NCBI GenBank assembly: GCA_015499995.1
Contig: JADNRV010000095.1
Location: 147,897 to 211,896 of the forward strand
Length of the DNA: 64,000 nt
Reading direction: 5' to 3'
Source: Flammula alnicola
Taxonomy: Eukaryota; Basidiomycota; Agaricomycetes; Agaricales; Strophariaceae
The notes under the pieces: model-generated
What the model saw: only the letters and a program-made list of their open reading frames with translations
Told to the model about the DNA's origin: nothing
Database searches by the model: none
Shown here: positions 43,174 to 64,000 of the stretch, piece by piece
Layout of the letters: each line of letters starts with the position of its first letter
Numbering within the stretch: position 1 is the first letter of the stretch
Program-made: the position numbers and the translations under genes

Positions 43174-43707
43174 ATGCAGCTCAAATTCGCCACCATGCTC
43201 TCTGCAGTCTCTGCGGCTCTCCTCGCAGCATCTGCCCTCGCTCAGTCCGTCCAATACGAGGCGTACGCCGACACCACCTCATGCAGCGGCTCCTCCTTTG
43301 GCTGCACTGATGGCGGTGCCGTATGCTGCACCTTCCCTACTGAGTTCGGATTTTCCGTCCAGTTCAAAAACTTGCCCTCCGGTTCTCAGGGCCAGGGATA
43401 CACCGATGGCGACTGCACAAGCTTCCTCTTCTCCTTATTCGGTCCCGGCACCAAGTGCTGGAACGGCGGAGGAGCCAGAGCGAGCACCATGAACTGGTTC
43501 CACTCCCCGCAAGGCCGTCGGGAGGTCGTTGCAGCCAGATCGAATGCGAAGGCCAACTGCTCCACCCCTGCGTATTTCAAATACGAGGACGCATCTGGTG
43601 AGACGAAGACGATCGCGGTCCCCGCTGGGGAGAACGCTGCGCAGAACATTGCCGATTTGTACACGGCAAAGAACTACACTGCTCTCGCTCAGTACCAGGC
43701 TTACTAA
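43174..43707 (+). CDS. Secreted cysteine-rich protein, single exon
   Basis: 177 aa, no intron. Signal peptide MQLKFATMLSAVSAALLAAS with cleavage near ALAQS. The mature part has a Cys-rich N-terminal half (TTSCSGSSFGCTDGGAVCC, DGDCTS, GTKCWNGG) and a C-terminal segment with two NxS/T sites (NCST, NYTA). Eight Cys in all could form four disulphides. The CC pair and Gly-rich spacing recall small secreted proteins, but it is not a hydrophobin (the Cys pattern differs). An in-frame TTG upstream was not used as start. Function unknown; extracellular location likely. Confidence 0.82.
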   Translation: MQLKFATMLSAVSAALLAASALAQSVQYEAYADTTSCSGSSFGCTDGGAVCCTFPTEFGFSVQFKNLPSGSQGQGYTDGDCTSFLFSLFGPGTKCWNGGGARASTMNWFHSPQGRREVVAARSNAKANCSTPAYFKYEDASGETKTIAVPAGENAAQNIADLYTAKNYTALAQYQAY

Positions 43708-44160
43708 ATGGTAAGGTCAATTCAAATACTGTTTTACTTTCACTTATAACTTTCTGAGTACAGATATTGCAGCAATATACAAAGAAGAGGAAGCGGAGGG
43801 ACAATTTATTTGCCAAGAATCAAATTTCGTCTATGGTCGCTAACTAGATTATATACAGATTGACTCTTCTCGCTCAATACTTATCTCTTCACGAACTTAT
43901 CCGTCATTTTATGTATAGTATATTGTGTACTGTATGTATGGTTGTGTTTTATATGATCCACCTATGCATTAAACTTCTCCGATCGAGACACTCTGAACGA
44001 TTCATCGTTTTCACGATGCCATTGTGATGCAGCATGCTCAGTAAAAGCAAAGTCGGGCAACTTGAAAGTCAAGCAAATTCAGACAAAAGTGGACAAAAGC
44101 CATACTATAGTCATAGAATCAAGGACTTGAAACGAATGAGTGGACTCGGGCTTATTACAA
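43708..44160. other. Intergenic, A/T-rich
   Basis: 3' flank of the secreted-protein gene, followed by A/T-rich sequence. No gene seen. Confidence 0.5.
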
Positions 44161-44169
44161 CTTGAACTT

Positions 44170-44561
44170 GCCCTCATCGTCGTCTCAACCACTTCGTCTG
44201 TTCTATCTCTGGGTGAAATCACGGCGTGGACGCTCTGCTATATGGTGTGTTTTCTTCCTTAGTTACCTTTTTCTGTGCTATGAACCCTCTTTCTTTGCAG
44301 TGCCGCCCCGGATATGCACTATTCAGTTACTCAGCGCCGCGCCAAAGGTTCGGAGGGCTCTTGAAACGCAGGCATGTACCCCTCCTTTTAATCTCTAACA
44401 CCCACTCATCCTTCCTTCAGGCTTCAAATTCCGTTCTTTACAGCGCCATCTCTGGAAAACCGGGTGAATGCACGATTCCCATCATTCACGTTGGGGACTT
44501 ACTCGACTTCCTCCTCTTTTCTTACAAATGCACACCACCCAGGCGCAGCAAGCAAGTTTAA
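44170..44561 (+). pseudogene. Unrecognised gene fragment with captured 3' end
   Basis: Three segments join in frame across plausible introns: 44170-44244 (donor GTGTGT), 44301-44375 (donor GTACCC) and 44421-44561. The product reads LALIVVSTTSSVLSLGEITAW..., then CRPGYALFSYSAPRQRFG, then SGKPGECTIPIIHVGDLL and ends SKQV. No ATG is in frame upstream. The final codons (from about 44,545) are the 3' end of secreted-protein paralogue B, brought in by the segmental duplication, so the reading frame is a chimera. Protein family not recognised. Confidence 0.35.
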
Positions 44562-47500
44562 TCTCGCAAGAGCTTGAATCTGCTGTCTTTGATTAAGTCT
44601 GGTCTGGTATTGCTCGACTTTTCATCCGTGTCTCTTGAAAGAAATTATGCCAATGGCAATCTCGGACTGAATATCGGTAGTTTACGAAGTCTGCCTACGG
44701 GAGACTAAATCTCGGCATGGTATATAAATTGGGACAGCGTCTTAGTTAGAAAAATCAATTCAATAAAAAGTATCCCCACAACCCGTCCAACGTCTGCAGC
44801 CGAAATACAGGAGCGGCAATGTCGCTTTTGCCATCAATGGTTTGGTTCTTCGCCAAGCAATAGTTGTGATTGCACTCGACTTTGGGAACTGGTGTAAGAA
44901 AGTAGAGAGAGCATTACTGCAGTACATGATCATTGCTCGACCTCTCACCTCTTCCTCCCTCAGCGAAATCTCTTCCACGTATTTCAACTGCGACAACGAA
45001 GAAAAGTTGAAGCGGGAGTTTTCTGGCTTGCGTCTCCGCTGGAAGATATGGAGGGAAACGATGTATGGAGACAATAAGTCTAACGTGCGATACAGCATCT
45101 CGGAGTGCTGGATCCAAGGCTTGTGAATCTCGCGCAAATGTAGACGCTTGATAAACGTCCGCATATCAGGCGTAGACTCCAACTTGGCGAGCACAGTGGG
45201 CAGCCCGAGGACCTCGCCGGATAGGGATACGGTACAGAAAATATCGGCCTGAGGGCGCTCTACACGTTAAAGCACATGCACGCAATGATTGGTGGTCTTC
45301 CTCTGTAGGCAGATGACTGACAATGGCGCAAAGCAATTCTGGCAGCAATTGGTGAAAGGCAATTTTGTGGGCAAACAGACAGTCGTGCACGAGCTGATGT
45401 TATATCGGCATTGGCTAGAGTGTTCTCATCAGCTGAAATTGTTCAACGCTCTACGGCAGAAGCATGGTAAGGAATTTAACAACGTGATCATACCAATGAT
45501 CATGCATCATTTGTCGCCCTTGGCTCTACCATCGATCCCTTCTATTGTGGGTAGTACACATTTGGTACATACACTTCGCTAGGCAAAGAATATTCGAACT
45601 ATCTGCTTATCTGAGCTGGTCTTATCATATTTCATTAGATGGGCTCCATCAGTCCCGAATCATCCTGGAGCTGATTCATCAAATCAACCAACTGTACCCA
45701 GTTGGCCATCCTCGAGCACAAGTCACACGAAGAAAATTAGTGGCCGCGGTGCGCTCAAAAAGACAGACGATAACTGGTATATGATGACATCGGCAGCTCT
45801 TGGTGGGCGAAAAGGCTGCCGCATATGGGGGAGAAGGATTCGAGGACATGGACTGGGGAAAACAGGAAGAGAGAGATGTCAAGAATGGAAAGAGGACGGA
45901 GGTGCATAGAAAAATGCAGAAAATAGAAAGAGAACTGTGGTAAGAATAAAGGTTATCGACAAAGGGCAAGGACGAAGGGCAAGGATAACACCAACACCAA
46001 CACCAACATCCCCTCTATCCCCGATCTCCACATCGCACACACTTTCATTGATATCGATCGACTGTACCACCTCCGGCGTGAATATAACAAACAAAAATTT
46101 TCTCCCTCGCCATCCTGAGATGACCCTCCAAACCCAACTCGTCATTCAAAGCGCGCGACTCAATACCCCATCCACGCGTAATGCGCATGCTTGGTAGGTT
46201 TGGGAGACGCTAGGTTCCTTGGTTCCATGTTGCAGTCATCAATGCCCTCCGATCTCAGGGGCGACTCAGTACTCGAGACCATGATGTAGAGAAAATAAAC
46301 TCGGCAGGACCGAACTAGTCTCAAAGACGAAAGCAACAAGAGAATGCCAAATGTGGAAAAGAAACGACGACGCAGACCAGGGAGAAGCTCGCTGAGAAAT
46401 ATGCACTGCATCTGTCCACGAATCATGAGCCAGTTATCAAGCGAACTGGCGAATCACCCATTGGGCTTCTCAAAAAGCAAAGAGAGAACGTGAGGATAGG
46501 AAGAAAAGAAAAAAGAAAAAAAAGATGTAGGCGTAATGGTTGAGCAGAGGTGGTACTATCGCACGGTATGTTTCCGCCTAGATGGTCGACATACTGCATC
46601 CAGGATACTCCACGTCCATAAAGTTAGTCAAATCCGTCCACGACCAACGCATTCTCTGGGATGCGCACGTGAAATGCGCGAAGTTGTTTTGGGGCGAAGG
46701 AGGTAAGGATAGCCGTTCCTCCAAATATAAGTAAAAGAGAGAATGCTACAACGAACGCACGTCCCTAAGGGCGTAAAAGCCATGAAAATCAAAAATAGGA
46801 CCCCCCTAAGCTCGACGTAGCATCTCCGGAGGATCGAGGTCAATATAAGGGTGTCAAAATGGACAGCAACTGCCATAGCGAAAGAATGGGCAAACATGAT
46901 ATCGCAACGCGACATACAGCCTTGAACGCCTGAAGAAAACCAGGTACCGAGGTCAGGGAGATGCATAGGAAGGCAACATGCTGCTGAGTCTAAACAAGAA
47001 GAGGGCAGCCAGCTTGTCAATGCACTTTATATCAGGACAAGGTGAGTTAGAAAGGCATCGACAGATACCATTGTCGCTGATCACCTCTTGTCCTCGTATG
47101 AAGCCCATAACCAAAGCCCTCTACGTGATCAAGAATAGCCACGATCGACGGGTTATAATGGGAGGTATGAAAAAAGGAGAGGGCCAAGGCAGAGGGAATG
47201 GAAAGAGAGGGGCCACCGAGGCGAAGCTATGAGGAGACGAGACGTGCTGATCGATCTCTGGTTTCAATGGCTATTATCAGAAAAAATTCTCGCATGCAAC
47301 GTATCAGCGAGTAAAGACAATATTGACAACCCGACACATTACTGAGGTGCTGCGACCGAGTCAGGCAGCAGAGGACTGCGGAAGGGGCGACACGACTCGC
47401 ATAGAACGAGTGCAAGACCTGCGTTTCTGGTGAAGAGATGAGCCCAATGGCGATCGATAGTTAACTGGACTGAACCACACTCACTAAGGCCCATTCACAC

Positions 47501-47700
47501 TTAGTACGTTCAACATCACGTCGCCTTTGGCATCGAGTAGAGCGCTTGCAAGAGGCCAGGTTACATACGAGAAGGCGGGGATGTTGCCACCAGAGCAGAG
47601 TAGGGATGAGGGAGCTCGAGAGCGCAGGCACTGCAGGGCATAGGGTTCGTGTCGGATACCGGGCCGGGAAGCTTCACTTCAGTGGATACGTCCGACTCGG
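44545..47700 (+). repeat. Segmental duplication, copy B
   Basis: Direct copy of 36,687-40,170 (see that entry). It carries F-box pseudogene copy 6, an inverted flank segment (45,434-45,682) and an R1 repeat with several deletions relative to copy A (for example around 46,860 and 47,280). Confidence 0.85.
44785..45378 (-). pseudogene. F-box pseudogene, copy 6 (in segmental duplication B)
   Basis: The start codon is lost (IAFHQLLPELLCAIVSHL, ATG changed to ATT). A deletion after LTCRAP shifts the frame. The insert between SL and LAKLES seen in copy 5 is present. The frame shifts again near FPKSSAIT, and the 3' third is absent. An upstream ATG (MHDCLFAHK) could still initiate translation but runs into the frameshift. 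Confidence 0.85.
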
Positions 47701-47957
47701 AAGACAGCATTGTACATCGAAATTTAATTCCGACCATCGATGACATTCACTGTATTTAATCCGTTGCGTATCACTTGAATCGTCCTAATTGTATTTACTA
47801 CTGTCAATGACGGCTGCCTGGTACCCCTTTGAAGGGAAAATGACACGATTATCTACAAAGACCTTTTGTCCGTGGTTTCCGTGAGCGGGATGCACAACGT
47901 CGGCGTCTAAGAACTGTTCAGGAATAACGAGACTACTACCATAGGTACAATCTGTCA
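45379..47957. other. Gene-free duplication B and F-box 3' flank
   Basis: No gene supported. It holds the inverted flank segment, the R1 repeat, and from about 47,800 the conserved 3' flank of the F-box family (TCCGTGGTTTCCGTGAGCGG; compare 23,760 and 2,355). Confidence 0.55.
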
Positions 47958-48819
47958 TCAGCCATGACATACCGATATCATCTTCTTCTGGGCAAGTCGA
48001 GGGACGGCGGCAACGAAAGTAGACGCGGGAATGGCTTCAGGAGAATTGAGCAACAAACGAAACTCGACGCTTCTCAATGCCGGAAAACCCTTTCCAAGTA
48101 GAAGATCTTGCAGTTCATCCCATGGGCTACCGTCGAGAGGGGCATCATGTTGATAGAAAACGATGGTAAGGTGTTGGAGATGCGTATGTGCATCAATAAA
48201 GAGAAGGGACTGTACCACCACCTGTATCGCGGAATGCTCAGATGTGGATCCGGTGATTATGAGTCTGAGCGAGCGTAGATTAGTGGAGTGCGTCCGCACT
48301 GCAATCATTAGCGACCGCAAGTCTAATCGATACATGGGTTAGTGACGCGGCGGCCGTAGACGGAAAGGAGCAACTGACCGGCATTGGAGGCATCATTCAA
48401 GTCTTCCACCTCTAGATGCTGCAATGATCCGCCAGCTGTGATCATGAACTGGAGTACAATGGTACTAAAATTTGAGGCATTGGAAGCCGGGTACAAAAAG
48501 TACAGTCTTCGCAGCGATGAGAGAGCTGGAATGAGCCAGTCCAATACCACAGTATCCTCACACCACTGCAGGTGCAACGTCTCCAGCCGAAATATAGGAG
48601 CGGCAACGTCGCTTTTGCTGTCAATGATTTGGTTCTCCACCAAGCACTGGTCGAAGGTGATTGCTCGCAGCTTCGGGAACTGGTTTAAGAAAGTGGGGAG
48701 AGCGTTATTGCCGTACAGGATCCTTGCTCGACCTGACATCTCCTCCTCCCTCAGCGACATCTCCTCCAGGCCTTTTAACTGCGACAACGAAGAAAACTCG
48801 AAGCGGGGGTTTTCTGGCT
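47958..48819 (-). pseudogene. F-box gene, 3' part, split by KDZ element
   Basis: The 3' part of an F-box gene: the rest of exon 1 (48379-48819), a 56-nt intron 48323-48378 (GTCAGT donor, CACTAAC branch, TAG acceptor) and exon 2 (47958-48322). The sequence runs from KPENPRF through LSQLKGLEEMSL to AQKKMISVCHG. Homology stops exactly at the element boundary. The missing 5' part is at 61,928-62,271. Joining the two parts and counting the 7-bp duplication once gives a 778-nt exon 1, equal to the paralogues at 2441 and 23851, with no frameshift. The insertion alone therefore broke an otherwise intact gene. Confidence 0.93.
48813..48819 (+). repeat. Target site duplication, left
   Basis: TCTGGCT, repeated exactly at 61,928-61,934. 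Seven bases match; an 8-bp duplication with one mismatch is equally consistent. Confidence 0.85.
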
Positions 48820-48845
48820 GAGTCGATAACGGTATTTACGTGCAC
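48820..48845 (+). repeat. KDZ element left terminus
   Basis: Starts GAGTCGATAACGG and ends at the first GTGCAC. Compared with the reverse complement of 61,902-61,927, positions 6-9 (GATA) and 21-26 (GTGCAC) match in register; other positions are diverged. Two further GTGCAC copies follow at 48,876 and 48,912. Confidence 0.65.
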
Positions 48846-49039
48846 GACAGTACTCTAAATTAGAGTCGAACGGCTGTGCACAATTTACTTTAGTTAGAGT
48901 TATGACTCGCCGTGCACGCCCTTAGAGTGGACCATCTCACTTGTTGCTCCGGCAGCTACGGCCACTATTTTGCCCAAATATGGTCCATTCGGGACAGCCT
49001 TTCGGCCATCAGCGGTTCCTCAGCACGCTCGCTGCTGCC

Positions 49040-49395
49040 CACAGCCATCAAAATGCTTGATCGATGTATCAAACAGCGATCAAAGCTCTTCCTTTTAGGG
49101 AATACTTATGCCGGTCAGGTTCCATCATCATCAATGACAATCAAATTGCTTGATCGCTGCTCCTAACAGCAATCAAAGCTCTTCCTTTTAGGGATATTGC
49201 CATATCTACATGCCGGTCGCTTTCCATAGCGATCAACTTGCTTGATCACTGTCGGGAATAGCGATCAAAACTCTTCCTTTTAGGGATACTGCCATATTTA
49301 TCATGCCAGTTGCTTTCCCTCGTCATCAATGGCGATTAAGATGTTTTGATTGCTGTCCCTGAGCGCGATCAGAGCTCTTCCTTTAGAAGGTACAT
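49040..49395 (+). repeat. Subterminal tandem repeat, about 4 x 95 bp
   Basis: Four diverged units, each ending in a GCTCTTCCTTTTAGGGA-type block (near 49,083, 49,177, 49,269 and 49,370) and containing TTGATCGCTG and GATCAA motifs. It lies between the left terminus and the first cargo gene. Such arrays are common transposase-binding regions. Confidence 0.75.
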
Positions 49396-49537
49396 TTAGT
49401 TACAGCTCTCAAGATGAATTCTATGATTTCAATTAATTTTTGAGGCACCTTGCGACAATGTGCGGGAGATGGTCACATGTTTGATAAGATAAGATGGAAG
49501 TTGGACTTGCAATTTCGGGCAATGATAGTGGGGTCGG

Positions 49538-49853
49538 GGAGGTGAATTGCCGTGCCGAGAATGCCAGTGAATTTCGCTTCCATAAGAGGTTGGTGGCTGT
49601 GTTGGGCCCATGTATGACTTTGAAAATTGAGATAACTGTAACTGGTGGGTATTTTATGAAGGGGATAGTTTTCCATTGTAGATATGGATGAAAGCAATTA
49701 TTCTCTCTGCCAGAAAAAACATTTAGTCAGTAGAATATGTCTGGACAACCTGAATATGGCGTGAATACCCTAGACTGAGGTGAATTGCCGTGCCGAGAAT
49801 GCCGGTGGATTTGCCGCACGTCGAGGTTGGTGGCTGTGTTGGGCCCATGACTT
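49538..49853 (+). repeat. Direct repeat pair inside KDZ element
   Basis: About 76 bp at 49,538-49,613 recur at 49,778-49,853 (GAGGTGAATTGCCGTGCCGA ... GGTTGGTGGCTGTGTTGGG). A TGATAAGATAAGATGG motif near each copy is also duplicated (49,482 and 49,892). Confidence 0.8.
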
Positions 49854-49971
49854 ATGCGACATGTTTCATTTTCAAGCCCAAGTCAAGTGTATGATAAGAT
49901 AAGATGGTTATGATAAGCACCATAAGTTCTTTGCAAAAAGTCAAACGGTCTAGACTAAGACATAATGTCTA

Positions 49972-52091
49972 CTATCCTCTGACCTTTTTCCCCTTGTTGC
50001 TCCGTTTCTTGGTTTTCCCTTCAGGCGTCTTAGTGGGGTCGAATCTCTCAGGGGGACGGATGACACGGCGAGCTCGTTGACCATCAACCGGGGTTGGTTC
50101 ATTCTCCACCTCAGCATGCTTACGCTTAAGTTTGTTAGCGGCCATGGTCCGACGTCTCTTCTCTTGCGCAGAAAGTACTTCTTCACCGGTCTCGGCGATG
50201 GTGGGAGTCGTGGTGGCAGCCATGGATAGCATGTTTGTGGTAGCGCTCATAATTGGTCTCGGCTGTAATTGAACCACGTGATCCAGGGCCTGAGTTGAGG
50301 ATCCTTCATAGATCCGTGCACCGGGAACTGTATAGTCCGAAGTGTCCAATGACGCCTGAGGGTGCTGGGACTCCAAAGGTGGCAGAGGAGTCGTGTCCAA
50401 ACCAGGGATAGCGGTATCAAGTAGGGCTGGATCAATTATAGCTTCATTGCCTGGGGGCGTAGGTGCGGTTGGATGAATAGAAAGCGAGACATTTGTGCCA
50501 ACGTCGGTAGTGCTGATAACAGGAATGTCAATTGGTGGGAAATTGTCATCGTTGTGAGGTTCATTGACAGCAGGGGTAACCGAAGGAGGAATTGTTGCAG
50601 CCATTCGCGCAAACGCAAATTCAATTGGCTCTGTTGGTGCTCCATCATTTCCAGGCATGTCGTCAGGTTCAGAACCAGCAAGTAAAGGGGAAGAAACAGC
50701 TGGCGTTTGGAGTCCAATGCCTAAACTAGCACTGGCGGCGGTGGAGTTATCTCCTGGTCCGAAAATAGGCGTATTCGAAGTCGTGTTGATACTGATTGGC
50801 GCATTGCTGGTGCTAAAAATAGAATCCTGATCCGAAGGAGATTGAGGCGGTGCACGGCTGTTCCGAAGTCCTGAGATCAGTCCTGCGAGCAGTTCCTCAT
50901 CGTCTTCATCGTCGTCAAGGTTCTCCACACTAACTGCCTGAGCTTCTGATTCTGTCGACAACTCTGTGTCCTTTGTTGCATTTTTCAATACCCGAGACGC
51001 TCGAACATCCGGGGCTGAAGAAACAATTAGTCAATTATCTGGCAATATCTATAAGTGACTTACGGAAACAATTTCGAACATGGTTCGAGAACGGCTGAAG
51101 AAAGTTTTTATGGAAGTCTGGATACGCCTCTCGGAAAGTGTGATCCGCCGCATTAGTTGGACCAGCATAAAAACTAGGTATGTAAGTGTTCAGCAACAAT
51201 TATTGTTACAAAACATAACGACCTACTCTTGCAGCCATATTTCACCATTTTCTAGGGCATGAGGACCCGCAGCAACGGCATAAATGACCCAGCCGGCCTC
51301 ATCAGCACAGGCTTTCAACGCGTTTGGCAAAATACGAGTTAGTGCCATTACAGCGCTGTTATCGTCCATTAGCAATGTTCATTGAGAATGAAAGAACGTA
51401 CTTATGGTATTCATCGGCTGTTTTCGTTCCATCCCCTTCATCGCCTTCGCTCTCGAGTAGCTTCTTTTCGTGAGACGCCCTCCACTTCGCAAGTTCTTCG
51501 TCAATCTCCTTCTGAACCTGAGGTCCCTCGGCTGCCAACATTCTCTGGGTAACATTGCGCCGAACTGCTAGTTTGGCCTCTCTAGTGGTGACTCCCTCTT
51601 GAGCAACTGCCTCGTCAACTGCTTTCTTGGTTTTTTCGGAATATAACCTTTGGTAAACGACGACACGTTGTGGGAGGCGCTCTGTCGATTTGGCAGATTT
51701 CCCTTTCTCTGGGAACTCAAGGGCTTTGACAAAACGCGCCGCGTCTCGTGTCTTCGAATGCCTAGTTGGGTTACCATTCCATTGGAACCACCATACAAGT
51801 TGCTACAACGGTCATCAGTCTCGTAAAACGCGTCCTAATTAAATAATGACGTACTTTTTTGCGCTCGGAAACTGCACTGTCGACTGCTGCCTTTTCGTCA
51901 GTAGTGAGAGGCTCCGTCTCTGGCTTGTCTGGAAAGAGCTCATTGCGCATCGGCCAGGCTTGGAACCATGCTGATTGACATGCGCTGTTGAATCTGCTGA
52001 CTGTCTTCTTCTTCTGAGCCTCGTGATAGTCCGCTATCTTCTTCCTCAACCACTCCAGCTGCTCAGGGCTGCTTGTCCAGTGTTTTCCCAT
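49972..52091 (-). CDS. KDZ cargo protein 1, 639 aa, unknown function
   Basis: Five exons: 51855-52091, 51402-51802, 51227-51355, 51064-51173 and 49972-51014. Introns are 46-53 nt and all phases agree. The N-terminal domain is helical and aromatic (HWTSSPEQLEWLRKKIADY, WFQAWP, QLVWWFQWNGNP), suggesting a DNA-binding or structural fold. A charged helical middle follows (KAVDEAVAQEG, EELAKWRASHEKK), then a conserved-looking block (GWVIYAVAAGPHALENGEIW). The C-terminal half is Ser/Thr/Pro-rich and disordered, ending in a Lys/Arg-rich tail (KKRSNKGKKVRG) that may be a nuclear signal. The frame also extends upstream from a TTG at 52145; ATG 52091 is the first Met. I recognise the N-terminal pattern as recurring in Agaricomycete repeat-linked proteins but cannot assign a function. 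Confidence 0.78.
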
Positions 52092-52159
52092 GCTTTGAAT
52101 AGTCGCGCGTAATGTTGATAAGCGTGCGTCGTTGTGAGCGGCCAAGATACTACAGTATT

Positions 52160-52491
52160 GTGCACAGCGGGAAGAGGGAGAACTTGAATGGGTTTACTCT
52201 AGCTGCGTGCACAGTATTGTTTTACTCTAGTACCATGCACCACATGCGCTACTGAGTGCCGTGCACAGTGCTTTCAAATTTGTGCCTATGCACTACCAAT
52301 GCTTATGCGCTACCTTTGCCGTGCACAGCGCTTTCAAATTGCGGTTTATCGCTGTCTTAGTCCCGTGCACCGCACATTCAAATTCATCTCGATTTCCTGA
52401 CGATCCAAATCACTCTTTCTAATTCTGGTTATACTATTCATTCTGATTATCAGCACTGCTACGCAATTTTCTACAGTCGTTCACCGTGCAC
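52160..52491. promoter_or_regulatory. GTGCAC cluster in divergent promoter
   Basis: Six copies of the palindrome GTGCAC at 52,160, 52,207, 52,261, 52,321, 52,365 and 52,486, most in the context CCGTGCAC(A/G)G followed by CTTTCAAATT. ACTCTAG motifs like those at both element ends also occur. It lies between cargo gene 1 (minus, start 52,091) and cargo gene 2 (plus, start 52,738). The same motif is found three times at each terminus, so a transposon-encoded regulator probably binds here. Confidence 0.65.
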
Positions 52492-52737
52492 GGTACTCCC
52501 AATTCAGTGATTCATCCCTGTTTCGAACTGGCAAGCCGAACCGTGTCTTCCGATCCTATTTCCAATATTTCTTGATAAGCTTATGCTTCTGATTTTTCTT
52601 CGGGCCGTTTCTAGGCATTGTGCGCAAATGGCATAGATTCTTGGTTGATTATTTTAAGATTGATCGTCACTCTCCACTGAGGGCCATATAAGCGCGTCCA
52701 TGTTCTCTGAACCGCCATCAGTACTTGCCCTCGTATC

Positions 52738-53541
52738 ATGGTCTCCTCTAACCAGCCCACCGATCTGTCTGAGGTCCCCAGCTCAGAGATGTCGTTGGGT
52801 GCTTTCCTCAGGGACCTATCTTCCTCGCTTCGTGAGCTTAATGGCTGTAAGTTACTTCCGTTATCATATTCATAGACTTATCTTACATTCCTATCAACCT
52901 AGCGGTCGTTCTTATGGCACAATCCATGGTCGATGGGGTTGTTACCGAAGGTATTTTTTTTTCTTCCGCTTGTTCCTTTGATTCTAATATACAATTTTAT
53001 TTTCGTGCAGCGCTGCAGTCCGCTGCTGATACCGATGCCTTTGTTGTGGTTCCTGAATCTATGGCTCCTGTGACTACTGCCTCTGCAGATGCACCCGCAA
53101 CTGCTGCTATTGCGAATCCGCCTATGGCCGCTGTTACTGCAGCCTCTCAGACTAGTGAGTTTCCACTTGTTGCCATATATTTTCTAGTCTCATTTGCTTG
53201 TAGGCAATCTAGACCCTGTCGATATGTCTGTTCATACTGGCACTCCCCCTGAGTCTCGTTGGTACGCCATAACGGTGGGCCGCAATCCCGGTATTTTTCA
53301 AGGATCGTAAGTTATTATTTACATTCCACCTTCTTTCCAGAGCTCTAATGAATGATTTAGCCAGTACGTTACTTCCAACATCGAACGCATTCCGGGTGGA
53401 CAGGCTGTGAGATGTGAAAATGAATCGCAGGCGAGGAATGTGTTCGATCACCATCTGCGTTCTGGGCTTGTCAAGCAGGTTGAGTTTATCGTCAATGAGA
53501 CCCCTATAACTTTTGATGATTACCATTCCACCCACCAGTAG
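52738..53541 (+). CDS. KDZ cargo protein 2 with RNase H1 N-terminal/viroplasmin-like domain
   Basis: Exons 52738-52846, 52903-52950, 53011-53154, 53204-53306 and 53361-53541 give 194 aa; introns are 49-60 nt. The N-terminal 120 residues are Ser/Ala/Thr-rich and probably flexible. The C-terminal part starts RWYAITVGRNPGIFQGSQYV and continues IERIPGGQAVRCENESQARNVF. This matches the pattern of the small RNase H1 N-terminal domain (also in caulimovirus viroplasmin), which binds RNA-DNA hybrids: Y-A-x-x-x-G-R-x-P-G-I-[FY], a following strand, then an acidic Ser/Glu-rich helix start. There is no RNase H catalytic domain. A nucleic-acid-binding helper role in transposition is inferred. It is transcribed divergently from cargo gene 1. 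Confidence 0.72.
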
Positions 53542-53658
53542 ATTGCCCGCTCGTTATCAGTTGTACTTGATGATATCTTAAAATAGAGTTGATCATATCT
53601 TGAAATAGAGTGTTTGCCACATTCTCCATAAATGCAAAGCTTACCCCTTAAGTATTAT

Positions 53659-53801
53659 TTCCAATAATCATCCGAAACCCATCAGGAAGTTATCCTATGC
53701 ATAGCGAGCCGTGATAACGGAATGGCACCATTTCCAATAATCGTCCGTGAAACCCATCAGGAAGTTATCCTATGCATAGCCGGCCATGATAACAGAACGG
53801 A
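53659..53801 (+). repeat. Tandem duplication, about 72 bp x 2
   Basis: TTTCCAATAATC...CCATCAGGAAGTTATCC...GATAAC(G/A)GAA occurs twice in tandem, between convergent cargo genes 2 and 3. It could act as a shared terminator region. Confidence 0.85.
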
Positions 53802-53977
53802 ACCGTTTTATTGCGTGATTGCACCCAATGCCCATGTATCGGAAGCATGAGTTATTGACATGGTTAGTTCGAAAAAGAAAAATTGCTGATGATACGTTCA
53901 CCTCGTCTAATTGTGCAACCATACAGATAAGTGTGAAAACATGCGGCTACTTTGGAATATGCACAACCAACTCATCC

Positions 53978-54700
53978 TCAGTCGTCCTCGAAGCCCCTGC
54001 CCTCCATCTCTAGCTCCTCCCTCTCTAGCTCCTCCAGGTGTTCCAGATCGTCACTAAGTGTATCCAATGCCATCCTATCCTCATCCGTAGTAAACCTGCT
54101 TCGTTCATTCGACATAAGTCTCATGTTCCCGTACAATCCCAGCATCTGGTTTAAGACGCTATTCCACATCTCACGATGCCTTTCGATATCACGAGATAGC
54201 TCACGCAAGAGCTTCCTCCCTTGCTCGACTACTTCGCCCATGTTATTGTAGGCCTTATTTACCTGCTTAGTGGCCTCGAGGCGTTCAGAATCCTGGGCCG
54301 TATTTAGACAGTCCATAGTATAATCGCCATATTCCGCAGCGCCAAGAACACGAAGACTGAATATTTGATATCGCGTCTTGGTGTCTGTTTTCATACTGCG
54401 AGGTGGAGTCTTCTGGTTCACTCCAGCCTCCTTCCTGTGAAACAAATAGAACATTAATCCCTTAATAATATACAAGTCTTAGAAAGGAAAGAAATATTTA
54501 CAATCTTTTCCTGGCTGCTGCAATACGCTCTCTATTTCCAGCATACGCTTTGGCCTTCTTCTCAGGTCTATGAACGTGGCCAGTGAGGTTCAGCTCTTAA
54601 AATATATGTAAAACACGTACTTCAGCAAGTAGCGCTGTTGTTTTGTAAGTCCATCCGGTCCAACCTTTCGCTTTGCGAATTTCCTTGTGTCTGGTGCCAT
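53978..54700 (-). CDS. KDZ cargo protein 3, 200-aa charged helical protein
   Basis: Exons 54621-54700, 54502-54567 and 53978-54434; introns 53 and 67 nt; phases agree. The N-terminus is strongly basic (MAPDTRKFAKRKVGPDGLTK; KPEKKAKAYAGNRERIAAA), consistent with nucleic-acid binding. The C-terminal 130 residues are helical with heptad-like leucines (LLRELSRDIERHREMWNSVL, TLSDDLEHLEELEREELEM) and end in an acidic patch (GRGFEDD). Likely a coiled-coil dimer. Family not recognised. It converges with cargo gene 2. Confidence 0.7.
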
Positions 54701-55498
54701 TGAGAGCAAGCAGTCAAAGAGGACTGATGGGAGCGACACTGTGTTGCTGATGGGAGCGACGCCGTGTTGCTATCAATGCCTATCATCTTGTCCAAGCTAA
54801 AAATAGAGTGTATGCGACGATGTATGTGACCCATATGTATGCGACTCTATTTTGGATATGTATGTGACCCTAGAGCGTACAGAATTTTGAAAGATTGACT
54901 GCACATATAGAATAAGATAGCTGGAGAATAGTTAGATCATATTTTTAAGAACTAAATACAGGAGGTATGAGCAAAATTCATACGTACAAGAGTTCAACGT
55001 TCAGGAAGGAGTCGGGTTTAGTTTCATTAGCATATGTACTTAATTCGAAACTTGTACCGCCTTGGAAGATATTACATGTCATACTCTTAGCAAAATTCAT
55101 ATCTGTAAATTAAAAACAGGTGCATTCAGACTGTATTAGAAGGTTACTTTGTATATTTTCGAGGACATATGCCTGCTGTGCGTTCTTCCCAGCGCAAAGG
55201 TCAGGTCACATACTACGTCAATTCTGGGTCGCACACACTCAGTGGTTCCTAGGGGCTCCTTTCTCGAATTCTCGCCTTTGCGAAACGGCGGCAACGTATC
55301 CGACGATCATCCGACAGCACCCCACTTCCTTAGTCGTACGGTTACCCTCATCGACCTCGCCATAATGTCTGGGAGCACACCGACGATGTGATGCCAGCAC
55401 AACCAATTTCGGAAGGTAGAACATGGACTTAATCTCTCGGTAACACTCGCAGATGTAAATAAAAAATAGGGTATCCTCGATAGAAAGTTCCGTCTTAA
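54701..55498. other. KDZ interior, nothing recognised
   Basis: A/T-rich sequence without a supported gene. AAAATAGAGTGTATGCGAC-type motifs recur at 54,800-54,850 and near 53,600. Confidence 0.45.
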
Positions 55499-56059
55499 TT
55501 AAAGTGAATACGAAGTACATATTCTTCGCTCGAGAAACATATGGAAGTTCGCCCTTTCACCTACCAGTGCACTGAATCGAAACTGCACTGTTCTTATAAC
55601 CAGGATTACGAATTCTTTATGAAGATCAGAATTAATAAATTGGTGGCCTGAGTATAAAATATGTTGCTCACCTTTCACTTGGTTTGCGAAGCGGAAAGCC
55701 GTGCTTGTCTTTTCTGATGCGCCTAATAGAAACGGCACTATTCCTATAACTAGGATGATGAATTCTTTTAGGAGTTGTTTGAATAAATCATGAATGTAAG
55801 AATACAAACGAGTTATTTACCTTTTACTAGGCTTGCGAAGCAGCAAGCATTTCTTTGTTGCAGTAGAAGCCTTGACACATGAACGTTCACTGCTTTCGGT
55901 TTCCGGTGCTGATTGGTCAAGAAACCTATAATTTGTTGCAGCTTCGACCGAAAGGATAGCTGAAATAATAATGGACTGGGGGAGAAGCTTGCCATATTCG
56001 AAAGGGATGAGTTTGAAGTCAGCAGGCATGCTCTCAGGAAGATTCGAGGAGCTGGCCAT
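55499..56059 (-). CDS. Doubtful KDZ cargo gene with exon duplication
   Basis: Possible exons 55821-56059, 55672-55722 and 55499-55553 would give 114 aa. The first exon (MASSSNLPESMPADFKLIPF) ends CLLLRKPSK and the second ends GFPLRKPSE, each followed by a GT donor. The introns (98 and 118 nt) share a 3' region (AATTC(A/G)T(A/C)ATCCT(A/G)GTTATA), so an exon plus intron was duplicated. The last acceptor (GTGAAAG) is weak, and introns are twice the local norm. It could be a real gene or a decaying one. Confidence 0.35.
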
Positions 56060-56285
56060 TCCGTTTCCTTGGTGGTGAGCAGGCTAGGAGGTGGTACTCA
56101 GATGCATTTCTGCTTGTGTAATGGCATATGGAGTGTCAGAAAAGGTGTGTCACATACTTACAGTGTCCGACTCGGATAGACCATCATCTTGCATATCTCG
56201 GAGCGACTGGTCTAGCAAAGGTGCGGTGTAATTTCCCCATGTACATGTGCTTATCGCTCATATCAAAACTTCTCTCTTTATGCCA

Positions 56286-56620
56286 CTATTTGAATTTACT
56301 GGCTGTTCTTTCTGGCGTGCATGCGTGCACTCCGTATCCGCTCAACGAATTCTAAAATATTTCGATATGGTGTACAGTCACTTGATGCCGCTATTTGAAT
56401 TTACTGGCTGTTTTTTCTGGTGTGCGTGCACTCTATACTTTATGCTGCTATTTGAATTTACTGGCTGTTCTTTTTGGCGTGCATGCACTCCGTATCCGCT
56501 CTACAATTCGTAAAAACTATTTCGAAATTGAGTTGCCTCCAGGCCTATTTGAATTTACTGGCTGTTATTTTTGGCGTGCATGCAATCCGCGAAACTATTT
56601 CGAAATTGAGTTTCCTCCAG
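56286..56620 (+). repeat. Repeat array inside KDZ element, four units
   Basis: The core TTTGAATTTACTGGCTGTT followed by (C/T)TTTTGGCGTGCATGCA(C/A)TCCG recurs starting at about 56,286, 56,391, 56,448 and 56,545. A second motif ACTATTTCGAAATTGAGTT occurs twice in the last part. The spacing is irregular (57-105 bp). Confidence 0.8.
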
Positions 56621-56736
56621 GCATAACCAGATGCAGTACTCTGCTGGTCATAGCTTGGAATCCTACAAATGGCTCCGAAGAGCCATTTCTCAGAGATTAG
56701 TGTTCTATGCTATAAAAGGAATCGGCGCCACTTGAA

Positions 56737-56892
56737 GCGAAGATCAATGATATTGGGAACTCGCTTAAGAGATCTGCAGGGATTTAAGCTTTAAGGCTGA
56801 CTGCAAAGCGAAGATCAATGATATTGGGTTCAATTCCCTTATAGAAACTCGCTTAAGAGATCTGCAGGGATTTAAGCTTTAAGGCTGACTGA
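56737..56892 (+). repeat. Tandem duplication near cargo gene 4 promoter
   Basis: A unit beginning GCGAAGATCAATGATATTGG and containing AACTCGCTTAAGAGATCTGC and TTTAAGCTTTAAGGCTGACT is present twice; the second has an 18-bp insertion. It ends 28 bp before the ATG at 56,920, so it likely includes promoter sequence. Confidence 0.85.
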
Positions 56893-56919
56893 CTGCACAG
56901 AAAATTCCTCACTAAGATC

Positions 56920-57598
56920 ATGTGTTTCTGCAACGTTGGTAGGCAGGTCGAAAAAGTCCTCACCTCATCCACCGATGCCGATCTGCTTGAATTCAAGCGT
57001 GAGATCCTCCGTATGTTTTGCGTTGCAATATGGCATCTATTTCATACTAATCACATAACTGTTATTATGCCAGACCTCTCGGATGAACTTTGTTCTCATC
57101 CATTCTTCTCATATGAGAACCGGTTCAATTGGGTAGTTCGAGAACATTTCAAGGAGTTCATCAATGGACACCTTGCTCAGAGTGGAAGAAAGTAAGTGAC
57201 TAAACATTTTATCATCCTAGTACGTCTATTCATTTCATATCTTCCATTTCAGAAGGAAAGCCGAAGACACCGATATCAACAAGGATGATGAATTGGATGC
57301 CAGTGGTTCGGACAGCGGTAGTTCTGACATGGCAACATACGCCACACAAGGCACGAGTTCACCATATGCCGAACCAGGTCCCTCGACTCCGAAAAGGTCA
57401 CGCACCAGGTCCATCGTTGACCCCCCCATCGCACATAGGTACACCGTCGACTCTGACGATGTGGTTATCGTACAATCCAGCGATATGATTTTGAAGACCA
57501 AGAAGGAATATGTCCTCATCGACCTGACCTGCTCTCCAGCTGTCGAAGGGAAACTTGTGAGGCTCACTGATAGTGTATTTGTCGATCTCTGTGGCTAG
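56920..57598 (+). CDS. KDZ cargo protein 4, 184 aa
   Basis: Exons 56920-57010, 57074-57191 and 57253-57598; introns 63 and 61 nt; phases agree. The N-terminal half is compact and aromatic (MCFCNVGRQVEKVL; SHPFFSYENRFNWVVREHF; EFINGHLAQSG). A basic/acidic linker (KRKAEDTDINKDDELD) and a Ser/Pro-rich segment follow (GPSTPKRSRTRSIVDPP). The C-terminal strand-rich stretch reads DDVVIVQSSDMILKTKKEYV. No known family recognised. It lies 202 bp upstream of the transposase start in the same direction and may be coordinated with it. Confidence 0.7.
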
Positions 57599-57800
57599 TT
57601 TAGATAATGTCTCAACGAGCATATGATAAGTAGTCTAGACAATTTTGATAGAACATAAGTTCCGGTAGAGATCTCGCCGCCATGTGCTCACCAATAACCG
57701 GGTGTTTGGTCTGAACTTACACGGCAGCGCAATGCATTTGTGTCTAAGTTAGTTCTCTGTTGATTCCTGCTCTTTCACCCCAAAAATCCACGCCCTTGCT

Positions 57801-60800
57801 ATGAAGCGTCGACATCTAAAAGTTGGCGTTATGGAACGCCTTCCTGGTCCTGAGGAGCTTGTAGAGAATGATCAGTCCAAAAACACCGTTGAGTCTCGCT
57901 CAACTGAGTTTCGAATCTTACCAGATGGCCGCATTTCCTCCCGCTCAGCTTATGTCTCTGTTGAGAACCTCGATGAATTGGGCGCTTTACCTTCGAATAA
58001 TTCCTCCTCCATACAAGACGATTTCAGTGATCATCCTGTCAATGACTGGAATGCTCTTCCAGGAGACCCGAGCGAACACGATGAGCAGACAGCTTTCAAG
58101 AAGCGGCGCCCAGTAAGTTATTCCTTCGAACTCATGGTATTTCGGCCATTAAATTTAATAAATAGGAACATCCTCTTCTCGACTGGGTCCAGGATCGAGA
58201 GCAGTTCATCTCTGAAGTTTTGAGATTGGAAGGAAGAGGCGGCTTTTCAAGCGCCTGTCTACGTTGCCGATCTGGCGCTGTTGCAGAGTACAGATGCCCA
58301 GACTGCGATGGAATGGACTTGGTCTGTCAAGAATGCATCCTGAGCTTGCACGAGCGGTGTGGGCTTCACCGACCCGAGGTTTGATCAAACATTCTTAATG
58401 ATGTGTATTCGCTGACAACCCACCACACCGTTAGAAGTGGTTCCACTCTGAAGGATACTTCAAACGCATTGACCTCATGTCCCTGGGACACCGCTTTCAG
58501 CTTGGCCATGCATTCGGCGAACCATGTCCTTCTCCGGTTTCAGCATTCGGGGCGCTTTCACTCTCCTCGATTTGAACGGCATTCATACTGTGAACGTGCT
58601 CTTTTGCGATTGTGAGAAAGCGCTTCCGACCTTTATTCAACTTCTTCGATTTGGATGGTTTCCGGCAACTGTTGGCTTTCCACGCACAGCAGTCACATTT
58701 CGTCTCCTGCGGTTTTTCCAACTCTTGTCATTCGAGTCAAAATCGACTGTCTTCGAGTTTCACAAAACCCTTTCAAGGCTGACAGATAATACTGGGACGA
58801 AAAGACCAAAGGTAAGAGTTTAATTGAACATCCTTTCGAAATATTTTATTTGATTGTGTTCTAGAATCGATATGCTACGCTTCTTAGAGTAGTACGTGAA
58901 TACGGCCACATGTCGATGCTGAAACGAGGTGGGAGAGGACATGATCGGACGGGTGCAGCTGGGACACGCCATGGCGAGTTGGCATTATTATGTCCTGCTT
59001 GCCCGCAAGTTGGGATAAATTTGCCTGATGGATGGGAGAATACCCCAAAGTCGAAGCAGTAAGCTCATATCTGTATCATATGTCAATGTCCACTTACAGT
59101 TCTGTAGATTTTTGTATGGCCTCTTCATCGGCCTTGATGCGAACTTCCGTTTGAAGCGGAAGATTGTGTCAAGTCATTTGGCAGACCCAGGTTTGTCGCA
59201 AGGATGGGCCTATTTTGTTGAGGAAGACGGATTCAAGAGTTACCTCCAAACTTTCGGAACATTGATTTTGCAGGAGGTATGTGGTTTTGACTTTTAGAAG
59301 TCACGTCAAACCTGACGAGTTCATAAGCCCAGTACATGCTCCAATCATAATGCTGTCAATAAAGAGCGTGCGATGGAAGGGTACGCCGCCTCTGGGGCTG
59401 GTACATGTGATTGTACGCGACATGACATGAAGCGACCCAATGGTGTAGGTGACTTACAGAAAGGCGAACGGTTAGTGGAATTATTACACTGCCGTTCCAT
59501 TCACTGAATCAAAAAATAGCTATATTAATATGGACTATATATTTTTTAATAGTCTAAAGCTACGACCTAATGTCCCTTTTATAACCGTTTCATACGATAT
59601 CGCCTGCCAGTGGAGCATCCATTTGTGGGATCGAATGAAGATATATCCAACCTCTCTCCAGTTTGACCCCGAAACAATGCCAGTATTCCGCTTTCTCATA
59701 CCGAAGTTCCACCTTCGCGCTCATATTATGGCATGCCAAACAATCTATTCACTCAACTACAACAAGGGATGCGCGAGGACAGATGGCGAAGGTGTGGAAA
59801 GGGGATGGGACCACATCAATCCCGTTGCGACTAGCACACGCGAGATGGGTCCCGGGAATCGCCGCGATACAGTCGATGGTCATTTTGGTGATTTCAATTG
59901 GCGAAAGACGTCCTCAATGGGTAAGTAGGCTTAATTTTATCATTGACTGGTATTGATATTGAGACATTTTTATAGGAACATTTTTGCTCTGTCAAATTAA
60001 GGAAGCCGTCCTTGAATTGGCGGAGAAGTCACGTCTTCACGTTGAGTTCTCGCACGGTCTACCCGAAGAAGATGTTGCTGAGTGGACAGCTCAATTGGAT
60101 GCTTGGGAAGATGATCATTCCAAGCCAAATCCATTTGAAGCATCATTGAAAGGTGAGCAGTGATCTATATTTATTTTACAATAAATCTGACTACATATCA
60201 GGGCTATCACAACAGGCCGTCCGCCGTCAGCTCGCTGATGAGGAAACGAAGTCTTTAAAAGACGGAACAGGATTTAATATGCATGAAGACGTATCTGCGA
60301 GTCAGCTAGTTACAGTGGGCCTCGAGTTGGAGAATCAACAGTAAGTCCATTTCATCGTTCATGCCCGTCTTGATCTCACTTGCCACTTAGACATCGCCTC
60401 AAAGTGGATCAAGAATTGCTAGGAATACATGCGACTGACGATCAGAAGGCCAAGTTGACCCTGCGATCAAACTCGTTGAAACGAAAAATTGACGCTTGAT
60501 AGAAAATCGAGCATATGTACATTCCAAGTCTACACCTTCTACGATCTCGTGCAGTCGACGCCAAGGAGCCTCAAGAGCCATCGCCTTCTGATATTCCCCT
60601 GTTTTTGCCGTCATCCATCCCCTCCCAGACACCATGTGACGTTCGCTTGAAGCATATAGAATGGCGGCTACGTTATGCTCAGTGTGGCGACGCGCTTGAC
60701 GACCTGCGAGATGCGCTATGCATGAGGTCTTTCGTCCTCATTGACAAGAAAGATTTCAGCGGGGGCAGCGGCGGAATACACGGTCTCAAGGAATTGTTCA

Positions 60801-61509
60801 GCGCATTCAGGCCAAAGTTAACACCGCAGTTAAGAAATATCGCACTGCACGAACGGCGCTTTCAGAGCTCGCTCCTGTGATTCAGCAGGTTGGATGGGAT
60901 ATCAGTCTCCCAGTTCTAAACGACGTGGACGTTAGGCCGCTAACACCAGAAGAAACAAAGCAAGGAAAAGGTAAGAAGAATGCGAAAGGTAAGAAATCAT
61001 CGACCACTTCGGAAGGTCGAAGGACGATATCATGGATTTGGACTCGCCTAGGAGGAGAGGTTGATTTTAATGAAGATGAACGACTCACGAAAGTATGTTT
61101 TCTTGTTTGTCTACGATACCTTCTAGCTAAATATTTTACAGGCCTTAGGATTGAGTGGTGCAAAAGCCGTGCTCGGCGAGATCGCTGGCATGAAGAGGTC
61201 GAACTTCTTCAAGAAGAAATGCGCCGGGTGCTGACTTACTTCCAGTACAAATCTACCGAGTGGGAGGAGCGCGCTAGCAGAGGTGGAGAGCCGTGGGGCC
61301 TTCCTGGCGTCCTGTGGGATGATGCATCAGTTGAGGGGAGGGTAGCGTATGCGCGTGAGCAGTCGGCGCAGTTTCTGGCGATGAAAAATCATTGTCTTGA
61401 AGTTTGGAAGAACGTTGAGGAATATGTCCGGAGATCTGGTCAAACGGTCGAGCTTGCGATGAAGGCATTGGAGGCAGACGAAGACGAGGACAATGATGTA
61501 GAAAATTAG
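57801..61509 (+). pseudogene. KDZ transposase with CxC2 cluster, damaged
   Basis: Exons seen: 57801-58112, 58166-58378, 58435-58811, 58865-59058, 59108-59276, 59328-59470, 59520-59920, 59976-60152, 60202-60340 and 60391 onward. The cysteine cluster is LRCRSGAVAEYRCPDCDG ... CQECILSLHERCGLH (58,250-58,376), the CxC2 type linked to KDZ transposases. The core follows: NGIHTVNVLFCDC, QLLRFGWFPATV, DANFRLKRKI, VSYDIACQWSIHLWDRM, GEGVERGWDHINPVA and GDFNWRK, with Asp/Asp/Glu candidates in place. Lesions: a frameshift between CPSP and GAFTLLDL (about 58,530-58,565), tandem TGA-TAG at 60,497-60,502 inside an otherwise conserved block, and another frameshift near 60,740-60,760. The last exon splice (61,093-61,141) is uncertain. 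This copy probably cannot make full-length enzyme. Confidence 0.88.
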
Positions 61510-61801
61510 GTTCATGATTGAATGAATTTATTTTCTTATTTTTTGGAGGCAGACGACGACGACAATGGTAATACACACTTATGAGTAGACGAATAAATAT
61601 TATTTTTGTATGGTTTATTTCCATCAGACACAAGTCCGAAGTGTGGGAATTCCTCATAAAAAGGAATTCACCTATCACAGATTTATTTGGAATGCGCCCT
61701 GGCGCATGGGCGGGAGGCGGGACCGGGGCGCATAGGTGGGATGGCGCTGCGACCTGCCGAAGGTGGCACGGGGAGCCCACGGAGGGTACATGCCAAATGT
61801 G
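61510..61801. other. KDZ element, 3' non-coding
   Basis: 3' flank of the transposase, with a GACGACGACAATG copy echoing the coding sequence just upstream and a G/C-rich patch at 61,690-61,790. No gene. Confidence 0.5.
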
Positions 61802-61901
61802 GACATAGAACTCTACTCTAGCTAGAGTAGAAGTGTGCACGGTCAGTACTCCAGGCTAGAATAAAATGTGCACAGTGCTTTTACTGTAATTAGAGTCAAC
61901 T

Positions 61902-61927
61902 GTGCACACCTACTACAGTATCAGGTG
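61902..61927 (-). repeat. KDZ element right terminus
   Basis: The reverse complement begins CACCTGATACTG and ends at GTGCAC. GATA and GTGCAC are in register with the left terminus. Further GTGCAC copies lie at 61,835 and 61,868, with CTCTA/TAGAG motifs between them. Confidence 0.65.
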
Positions 61928-62271
61928 TCTGGCTTGCGTCTTCGCTGGAGTATAGCGAGGGAAACAATGTAAGGAGACAATAAGTCTAATGTGTGATGCA
62001 GCAGCTCGGAGCGCTGGATCCAAGGCCTATGAATCTCGACCAATCGTAGATGCTTGGTAAACGTCCGAATATGAGGTATAGATTCCAATTTGGCCAGCAA
62101 AATGGGGTCCTCGGAGTATTGGGATATGGTACGGAAAATGCCAGCCTGAGCGGGTGAAACGAGCGCTCTACACGTTAAAGCACATGCACATAACGATCGG
62201 TAGTCGTCCTCTGAATCCAGATGACTGAGAATGGCGCAAAGCAATTCTGGGGGCAATTGGTGAAAGGGCAT
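61928..62271 (-). pseudogene. F-box gene, 5' part, split by KDZ element
   Basis: Encodes MPFHQLPPELLCAILSHL, LCACALTCRALVSPAQ, and on to LQRRRKP, where the element begins; two chance codons and a stop follow. It continues at 48,819. An upstream extension of the frame to 62,508 contains no family-conserved residues apart from CVAHK just before MPF. It includes the right-hand 7-bp duplication at 61,928-61,934. The transcript would now read into the transposon terminus, giving a truncated F-box-only protein that could still bind Skp1. Confidence 0.92.
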
Positions 62272-62589
62272 TTTGTGGGCAACACACACGGTCGTGTACT
62301 GGGCTGTTGTTATATCGGCGTTGGCTAGGGCGTTCTCGTCAGCAGATTTCGTATAAATCCTGATGCGTGATGTGCTAAAACGCTTATCAAATTCATTTTG
62401 AAACAACAAAATCCAGTCACAGCCTTCAACGATTCTCACAGAAGGAATCACGATGGCGCTCTGTGGCATTATCAACTCCTGTTGGATGCTATGTAGACAA
62501 GGAGTCATAACTCAGGTCTGAGCTGACAATAAAAATAAACAAATGGTTCTAAATCTTAATCCCCTTCCGACTTTACATGTTTTGTCTGA
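62272..62589. other. F-box 5' flank
   Basis: Upstream region of the split F-box gene. It shares GTTATATCGGCGTTGGCTAG-type sequence with the flanks at 25,080, 37,500 and 45,400. No separate gene. Confidence 0.5.
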
Positions 62590-62775
62590 TTATTGTCTGG
62601 CAACACCTCCAGAACTACATATCTCGACACATGCGGTCGGTCCTCTCATTTTCTCCATATTTTAATGGTCATCATTGTAGAATATATATGTGACCGTATA
62701 TCAATAGTATCTAGCTTCCTTGATTCCAGTGGGCACTGCTGTTGCATGCTATAGACGCCCACATGTGTGCAATTT
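62590..62775 (-). repeat. Repeat inverted relative to 2,070-2,260
   Basis: The reverse complement matches 2,070-2,260, including TGTGGGCGTCTATAGCATGC and GATACTATTGATATACGGTC. Confidence 0.75.
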
Positions 62776-62779
62776 GCGT

Positions 62780-64000
62780 GGTACGCGTGAAAAAACCCAA
62801 AGATGATCAATGATCGATACTGAATCGCACTCACCAGACCCATTCGCCACTAAGCACTCTGATATTTGACTCGAGGCGTGGGTTTTAGTAGAGAATTTGA
62901 CGCTGGCTGTGATATGCTACGTACGAGGATGGTATGTTGGAATGAGAACAAAGAAAGGAGCCAAGGGTGTGCACCGGCAATTGCCGGCATACAGCCTAGG
63001 GAGGGGGGGTCCCGTCATGGCTTATCCAAATAAAAATTTGAAGTAAATTTTTGGCAGAATAACACATCTAGAGGGTTCCTGCAAAGTATTATACACTGTT
63101 TCCATGAATTTACGGCCCACATGAGCTGCCTGTGGCTCAACAGCAAGAATGTGTCCAGATTTGGACACATTATGTCAGCAGTCAGATCGGCCCGAACACG
63201 GTTACGTAGCAGATCAGTCTTAGTTAGGAAGATCTGATCAGGCACGTGACAATTTATTTCCTTTTTTGGAATGGCTAAGGGGGTTAACAAACCCTTATCC
63301 AAATAAAAGTACCTCGTATATCTGAAAAAAAAAATTGCATACCCCTTGAAAGGAGCAGCCAAAATGGGTCAAGGGTTTTCGCGTCCGGGCCGGGTACCCT
63401 CCATGACGTCACACGTTCCGCTTTCTTTTACTTCGAAAGTTGCAGTAAAGAGGCAATAAGCAAGCGCCACTCCAGATAATAATATGTGCTCAAGCGAGTC
63501 GATGCAATGAATGAATGAAAGATATATGACTATCTGAAGGTGGTACTCCCACGTAATGTATTCCTTCGTTCACCAAGGCGCCAAAATGACCGCGAAAAAA
63601 AGGATGGCGCGGTTTGGGCGCGGTCGTACGATGAACGTTGAACAGAAGTCCATGGCTGGGCACAAAAATGGAAAGGAACCAAAATGGCTGCTCGTAAACT
63701 GACCCAGCCTCGCAAATCGCACAAATCTCGGCAAAAGGATGAAATCCAAATCGCGCACACAACAACGACAGTCCAAACAAAGAAATGACAACGATCATGC
63801 ACTGCACGAGCTATAATTCTACGGGACGAGGAGGGTTTGCGAGGAATTCTTGTACAATCACAGTAAAAAGAACGATGTGAGGTCAAGGCGCCAAGACGTC
63901 GAGGTTGTTAAGAACGTCAGCGTAAGTGCTGAAGCGCTGACGCACGATGCGTGACCATGAAGATACTGGGTACTTTTGCCGAGGAAATTGGTGAGCTTTG
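62780..64000 (+). repeat. Dispersed repeat family R1, copy 4 (runs off window)
   Basis: Collinear with 21,960-23,470: GATCGATACTGAATCG, GACTCGAGGCGTGGG, CTACGTACGAGGATGGT, CTGACCCAGCCTCGCAAATCG, and a GACGCACGATGCGTGACCAT block near the end. 63,010-63,360 is absent from the first copy and may be a nested insertion: ATCCAAATAAAA occurs near both of its ends (63,027 and 63,298). No gene supported. Confidence 0.65.

Follow-up and report, generated by a model that had tools for sequence, protein, structure and literature searches.

A Kyakuja-like KDZ DNA transposon with defined ends in an F-box gene of Flammula alnicola

The two parts of an F-box gene lie on either side of a KDZ transposase gene and its neighbours in a 64,000-nt stretch of the Flammula alnicola genome, hereafter the window (G000:C857:147897-211896; the window edge is the contig end). 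The question is whether one gene was cut in two by a mobile element, and if so by which kind, or whether the two parts were brought together in some other way. The answer to which we assign a probability of roughly 0.93 is that a KDZ cut-and-paste transposon of the autonomous type, with Kyakuja as its closest counterpart, entered exon 1 of the F-box gene in one of the two nuclei of the dikaryon. The assembly comprises 74.4 Mb in 861 contigs, among them those named here (C22, C29, C83, C160, C307, C334, C568, C649, and C857), and two haplotypes are present at this locus: the window matches C568 at 96.9% over 27748-37684 and at 98.6% over 37826-48819. The features are collected in Table 1; the gene models are hand-checked or regional.

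Table 1. Features of the element and of its target site, in window positions, followed by the gene pairs of Gymnopilus with their contig sizes.
Feature	Position	Strand	Basis or remark
Split F-box gene, 3' part of exon 1	48361..48812	-	alignment, reading of the joined frame
Left TSD copy, TCTGGCT	48813..48819	.	sequence, alignment of F-box copies, comparison of element copies
KDZ (Kyakuja-like) DNA transposon, 13,108 bp	48820..61927	+	identical terminal bases in the full copy in C160 (99.78%)
Left end, imperfect terminal inverted repeat, GTGCAC at 21, 57, and 93	48820..48917	+	alignment score 31
Subterminal tandem repeat, units of ~92 nt	49038..49386	.	repeat analysis
Gene B, 5 exons, 639 aa, no Pfam family	49972..52091	-	model identical to BDZ97DRAFT_1761962
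Gene F, predicted only, 4 exons, 218 aa	52738..53541	+	weak RNase H1 N-terminal-like match (Cauli_VI), E 0.017, below cut-off
Gene C, 3 exons, 200 aa	53978..54700	-	model identical to BDZ97DRAFT_2046829
Gene D, predicted only, 2 exons, 205 aa, no Pfam family	56920..57598	+	gene model
KDZ transposase with CxC2 zinc cluster, 11 exons, 1065 aa (from C307)	57801..61509	+	gene model, profile matches
Right end, matching imperfect repeat, GTGCAC at 21, 55, and 88 from the end	61835..61927	-	GTGCAC count against controls
Right TSD copy, TCTGGCT	61928..61934	.	sequence, alignment of F-box copies, comparison of element copies
Split F-box gene, 5' part with F-box domain and start codon	61935..62511	-	F-box-like, E 4e-8
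Gymnopilus gene B/KDZ pair CVT26_004584/CVT26_004585	contig of 16,251 bases		
Gymnopilus gene B/KDZ pair CPB84DRAFT_1853466/1853471	contig of 64,426 bases		
Gymnopilus gene B/KDZ pair CPB84DRAFT_1743358/1743352	contig of 750,486 bases		

The divided F-box gene and its relatives

An earlier note on this DNA had placed the end of F-box similarity at 48819 and its restart at 61928, with TCTGGCT on both sides, and the alignment confirms this; its proposal of a KDZ transposon of ~13.1 kb with both ends defined, which split the F-box gene by a base-precise insertion, is likewise supported. The joined flanks form an open frame with the 778-nt exon 1 described there: the stretch from Met to a shared Gly codon comprises 260 residues, as in the paralogues at 24 kb and 3 kb, and the presumed splice site, a G/GT donor at this codon present in both the split gene and the 24-kb paralogue, gives 259 codons plus 1 nt. 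When the joined flanks were aligned to the paralogues, all 15 other F-box copies, several allelic pairs among them, crossed the junction ungapped for 30 nt on either side (C83:107862-108076, whose contig ends before the junction, was dropped); six of the 15 carry a single TCTGGCT. In the filled gene the reading frame stops two residues into the element, after the F-box domain, and the gene is therefore knocked out in that nucleus.

F-box paralogues form a cluster in the window (2244-3696, 23758-25121, 30571-31991 on the minus strand, 36852-37552, 44767-45436, and 47828-48819 with 61928-62505); they are 75-90% alike, with a mosaic pattern of similarity, and further copies are found in C83, C568, and C307. 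A duplicated block of ~3.5 kb (~84-85%; 36688-40160 and 44545-47689), seen via its cross-matches to C568, includes an F-box copy, and in haplotype A an additional intact F-box gene lies next to the split one (C307:27636-29193).

An empty allele with a single TCTGGCT, which the earlier note had named as support for the insertion, was obtained only in part. By gene order C568 matches the window up to 48819 and then C307 beyond the F-box gene, and it is syntenic and unfilled, but its target site reads TCGGGCT, one base off TCTGGCT, and its F-box gene is a mosaic of paralogues, resembling the split gene in its left part (92-100% from -975 to -150) and the copy C307_b in its right part (95-99% in most of the intervals compared). 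For these two reasons C568 was rejected as a clean pre-insertion allele, and it is better regarded as an unfilled relative than as a clean ancestor.

The same mosaic bears on another reading, in which the element was present in each of two F-box paralogues and its copies recombined, bringing together the left half of one gene and the right half of the other. The left half of the split gene is indeed nearest to the C568 copy (C568_26k) over the interval given above, its right half is nearest to the 24-kb copy (95-99% from +75 to +375), and the C568 gene itself is nearest to C307_b in its right part. However, C568 ceases to be the nearest relative of the split gene about 150 nt to the left of the insertion, where C307_b takes over, and some 75 nt to the right of it the 24-kb copy follows; as the change does not fall at the insertion point, one gene was apparently cut in two, rather than two genes paired by recombination. 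The latter would also require that two genes were hit independently at the same base, and the F-box family is mosaic in its unfilled copies too. The pairing of two filled genes is thus considered extremely unlikely, and a single divided gene is preferred.

Other copies, insertion sites, and contig joins

A search of the assembly for the end patterns with up to three mismatches, advised in the earlier note, was productive: four left ends (C22, C160, C649, and C857) and three right ends (C160, C307, and C857) were found, of which those in C160 bound a full copy, and the reversed control patterns gave no match in the same search. The copy number obtained in this way is that of copies with recognisable ends, since diverged or end-less ones would escape; a DNA search with the whole element was unsuited to counting, as known copies were missed, the window itself included. 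The second full-length copy, in C160, has the same first and last base and is 99.78% identical over 13,115 columns, the differences being two substitutions, 25 single-base indels, and one misaligned block of five columns. Twenty of the 25 indels are clustered at 54.1-56.1 kb, indicating that the C160 sequence is poor there. The insertion looks real and precisely bounded, and, because the C160 and window copies are near-identical, recent.

Three insertion sites can be distinguished: F (the window), Y (C22 and the right side of C160), and X (the left side of C160 and C649). At site Y, AGATGGT is found before the left end in C22, at the start of the right flank in C160, and once in the unfilled C29, which matches the left flank in C22 at 99.9% over 1297 nt and the right flank in C160 at 95% over ~2.5 kb. 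As this heptamer is present twice when the site is filled and once in C29, the element generates 7-bp duplications; a clean empty site was thus found for the copy at site Y, not for that at site F. The sequence preceding the element at site X belongs to a dispersed repeat, continuous in C334, and the right flank of this site was not found in the assembly. The element ends and the length of the duplication hold without the F-box argument, because the C160 copy and the AGATGGT site show them independently. With the ends fixed in this way by independent copies, the chance of a 7-bp match of the flanks is ~4^-7 per site, and since the match is present at two sites it is beyond chance.

The earlier note had also raised the worry of a false assembly join, which proved justified for other copies of the element. 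C160, over 56800-71000, carries site X sequence to the left of the element and site Y sequence to its right, and was therefore rejected as a single true insertion, its flanks deriving from two sites. C22:1 and C307:43564 abut exactly at window 49727/49728, as if a contig joining the left side of Y to the right side of F had been cut inside the element. Both cases are read as wrong contig paths across a long repeat with almost identical copies, real recombination of element copies being a possible alternative. C307 itself is 99.87% identical to the window over 49728-64000 (14 single-base indels, two substitutions, and one five-column block), as would be expected of one locus assembled twice.

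Because contig paths through the other copies are chimeric, the assembly alone is insufficient for the F-box join, and the two F-box halves might likewise be linked only through the repeated element without being neighbours in the genome. Against such an artefact, no complete join other than that at site F in C857 has matching 7-bp duplications within one contig; the halves are complementary to the base, with the frame intact; and C568 is collinear with both flanks, with the window to the left (98.6%) and with C307 to the right. Furthermore, both sides of the junction favour one paralogue group, that of C307_b and the 24-kb copy, although the interval from 0 to +75 is weakly discriminating (89% vs 87%). 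The F-box join is supported by its biology, that is, by the duplication and the frame, and not by the assembly alone; an artefact at this site is considered very unlikely, and a true insertion is retained.

Transposase, termini, and other genes of the element

The transposase frame is open only in the C307 copy, from which a protein of 1065 aa with no stop is encoded in 11 exons separated by ten GT-AG introns of 49-56 nt. The window copy has single-base indels, e.g., at 58548, 60745, and 61085, where C307 and C160 agree with each other, and these are likely to be consensus errors rather than mutations; the transposase model deposited for the window has 761 aa. The C307-derived model matches the KDZ domain PF18758 (E 1.2e-61, profile positions 2-217 of 217), with a CxC2 cluster upstream of it (E 1.9e-37) and a CxC1 match on an overlapping stretch (1.1e-6). 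Among ten aligned relatives, at the positions which we take to be the catalytic D/D/E, D2 and E are kept in all ten and D1 in nine, with a gap in P0016. A KDZ protein of Laccaria bicolor, its clade unlabelled, is 47% identical over 93%, and a PDB search with the Gymnopilus transposase gave no match.

A DNA transposon of another superfamily might merely hold a KDZ gene, and hAT7 of rust fungi also makes 7-bp TSDs, according to PMC12730594. However, no other transposase family reached the cut-off in the gene models and ORFs scanned, and the KDZ gene lies on one side of the element, near one end and within both termini. This is the least credible of the alternatives, and a KDZ transposon remains the preferred reading.

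The termini of the element are GA..TG. The outer 130 nt of its two ends pair as an imperfect inverted repeat of ~95 bp, with similarity from 6 nt inwards, and the alignment score of 31 was reached by none of 2000 random pairs (maximum 18). GTGCAC occurs six times in the outer 2 x 130 nt, compared with a control mean of 0.13 and with none of 5000 controls reaching six; 11 further occurrences lie elsewhere inside the element. The arrays of three GTGCAC are putative transposase binding sites. A 54-nt repeat, present four times, is located between genes C and D (window 56275-56587).

The description of the element as cargo-carrying in the earlier note could not be upheld, as neither a host-type gene nor a TET/JBP gene was recognised in the gene models and ORFs scanned (7 models and 20 ORFs for TET/JBP), and gene B has relatives beside KDZ transposases in Gymnopilus. 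Of the genes other than the transposase, gene B has the best support. Among 7990 scored candidates five relatives of gene B were found, all in Gymnopilus; three of the five share a contig with a KDZ transposase, as judged by equal contig size (Table 1), and for P0002 and P0003 no KDZ match on the same contig was seen among the best 120 of 1994. Because the contig is shared at three loci, gene B looks like a gene of the element rather than cargo. Its predicted structure has a mean pLDDT of 47.9, residues ~10-90 and ~120-190 being better modelled and all helix; none of the 25 Foldseek matches listed had E <= 0.001, and a PDB sequence search gave matches only at E 0.15-0.78. For gene C, the 666 candidates included no relative other than the gene itself.

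From these features a course of transposition can be suggested. The DDE transposase, with its KDZ and CxC2 domains, would probably bind the three GTGCAC repeats at each end, excise the element, and join it to target cuts staggered by 7 nt, the repair of which would give rise to the 7-bp duplication; gene B may encode a helper of this process, as the shared contigs suggest.

Relation to known KDZ elements and implications

The KDZ groups were reportedly named by Iyer et al. in 2014. The Flammula element combines a KDZ domain, an upstream CxC cluster, and mobility as a unit with the same ends at different sites, flanked by TSDs. The view expressed earlier that such elements are poorly characterised is not supported, since two papers already describe complete KDZ elements together with their ends and TSDs (PMC12730594; PMC12810828). 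In the first of them, by Kojima (2025), complete Kyakuja elements have 7-bp TSDs, CA..TG ends, and no TIRs. The element of F. alnicola is like Kyakuja-1_LB and Kyakuja-2_LB of Laccaria bicolor in its KDZ transposase, its 7-bp TSD (TCTGGCT at site F and AGATGGT at site Y), its right end in TG, and its occurrence in Agaricomycetes. It differs from them in that they have a TET/JBP gene, CA..TG termini, and no inverted repeats, whereas in the Flammula element TET/JBP was not recognised in the models and ORFs scanned, the left end is GA, and imperfect inverted repeats of ~95 bp with three GTGCAC each are present. The 8-bp TSD given there for Zisupton and Dileera (PMC12730594) is unlike the 7 bp seen here at two sites.

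Yet other relatives are KDZ1, KDZ2, and KDZ3 of Cryptococcus neoformans, active elements of ~9-11 kb with TIRs, TSDs, and defined ends, whose insertion was observed experimentally (PMC12810828). According to the same text they have long TIRs of 139-241 bp, TSDs of 4-8 bp, and CxC1, while the Flammula element has CxC2. In Gymnopilus dilepis and G. junonius, transposases 53-67% identical to the present one are matched by gene B relatives whose contigs are equal in size and whose locus tags are near-consecutive. In the collection of papers searched, none was found on Flammula alnicola and transposable elements. Judging from its sequence, the element can thus be considered a new member of the KDZ family, apparently Kyakuja-like by its TSD, which differs in its ends and is without a recognised TET/JBP gene.

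It may tentatively be proposed, though the proposal invites more doubt than confidence, that the element represents a KDZ lineage without TET/JBP that has kept gene B as a fast-evolving partner, inherited together with the transposase in Flammula and Gymnopilus. On this view gene B would assist transposition or the evasion of silencing, and members of the lineage would end in arrays of three repeats instead of plain termini. In such a partner gene the structure model would correspond to a helical N-terminal part of ~200 residues followed by a long disordered tail.

The chimeric contig paths are a warning that contig joins through such elements can mislead. At the locus itself, a member of a multi-copy F-box family is disrupted in one nucleus. 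For the Agaricales, there is now a complete and apparently recent KDZ element whose proven ends, three insertion sites, unfilled allele, and candidate partner gene make its end recognition and mobility testable.
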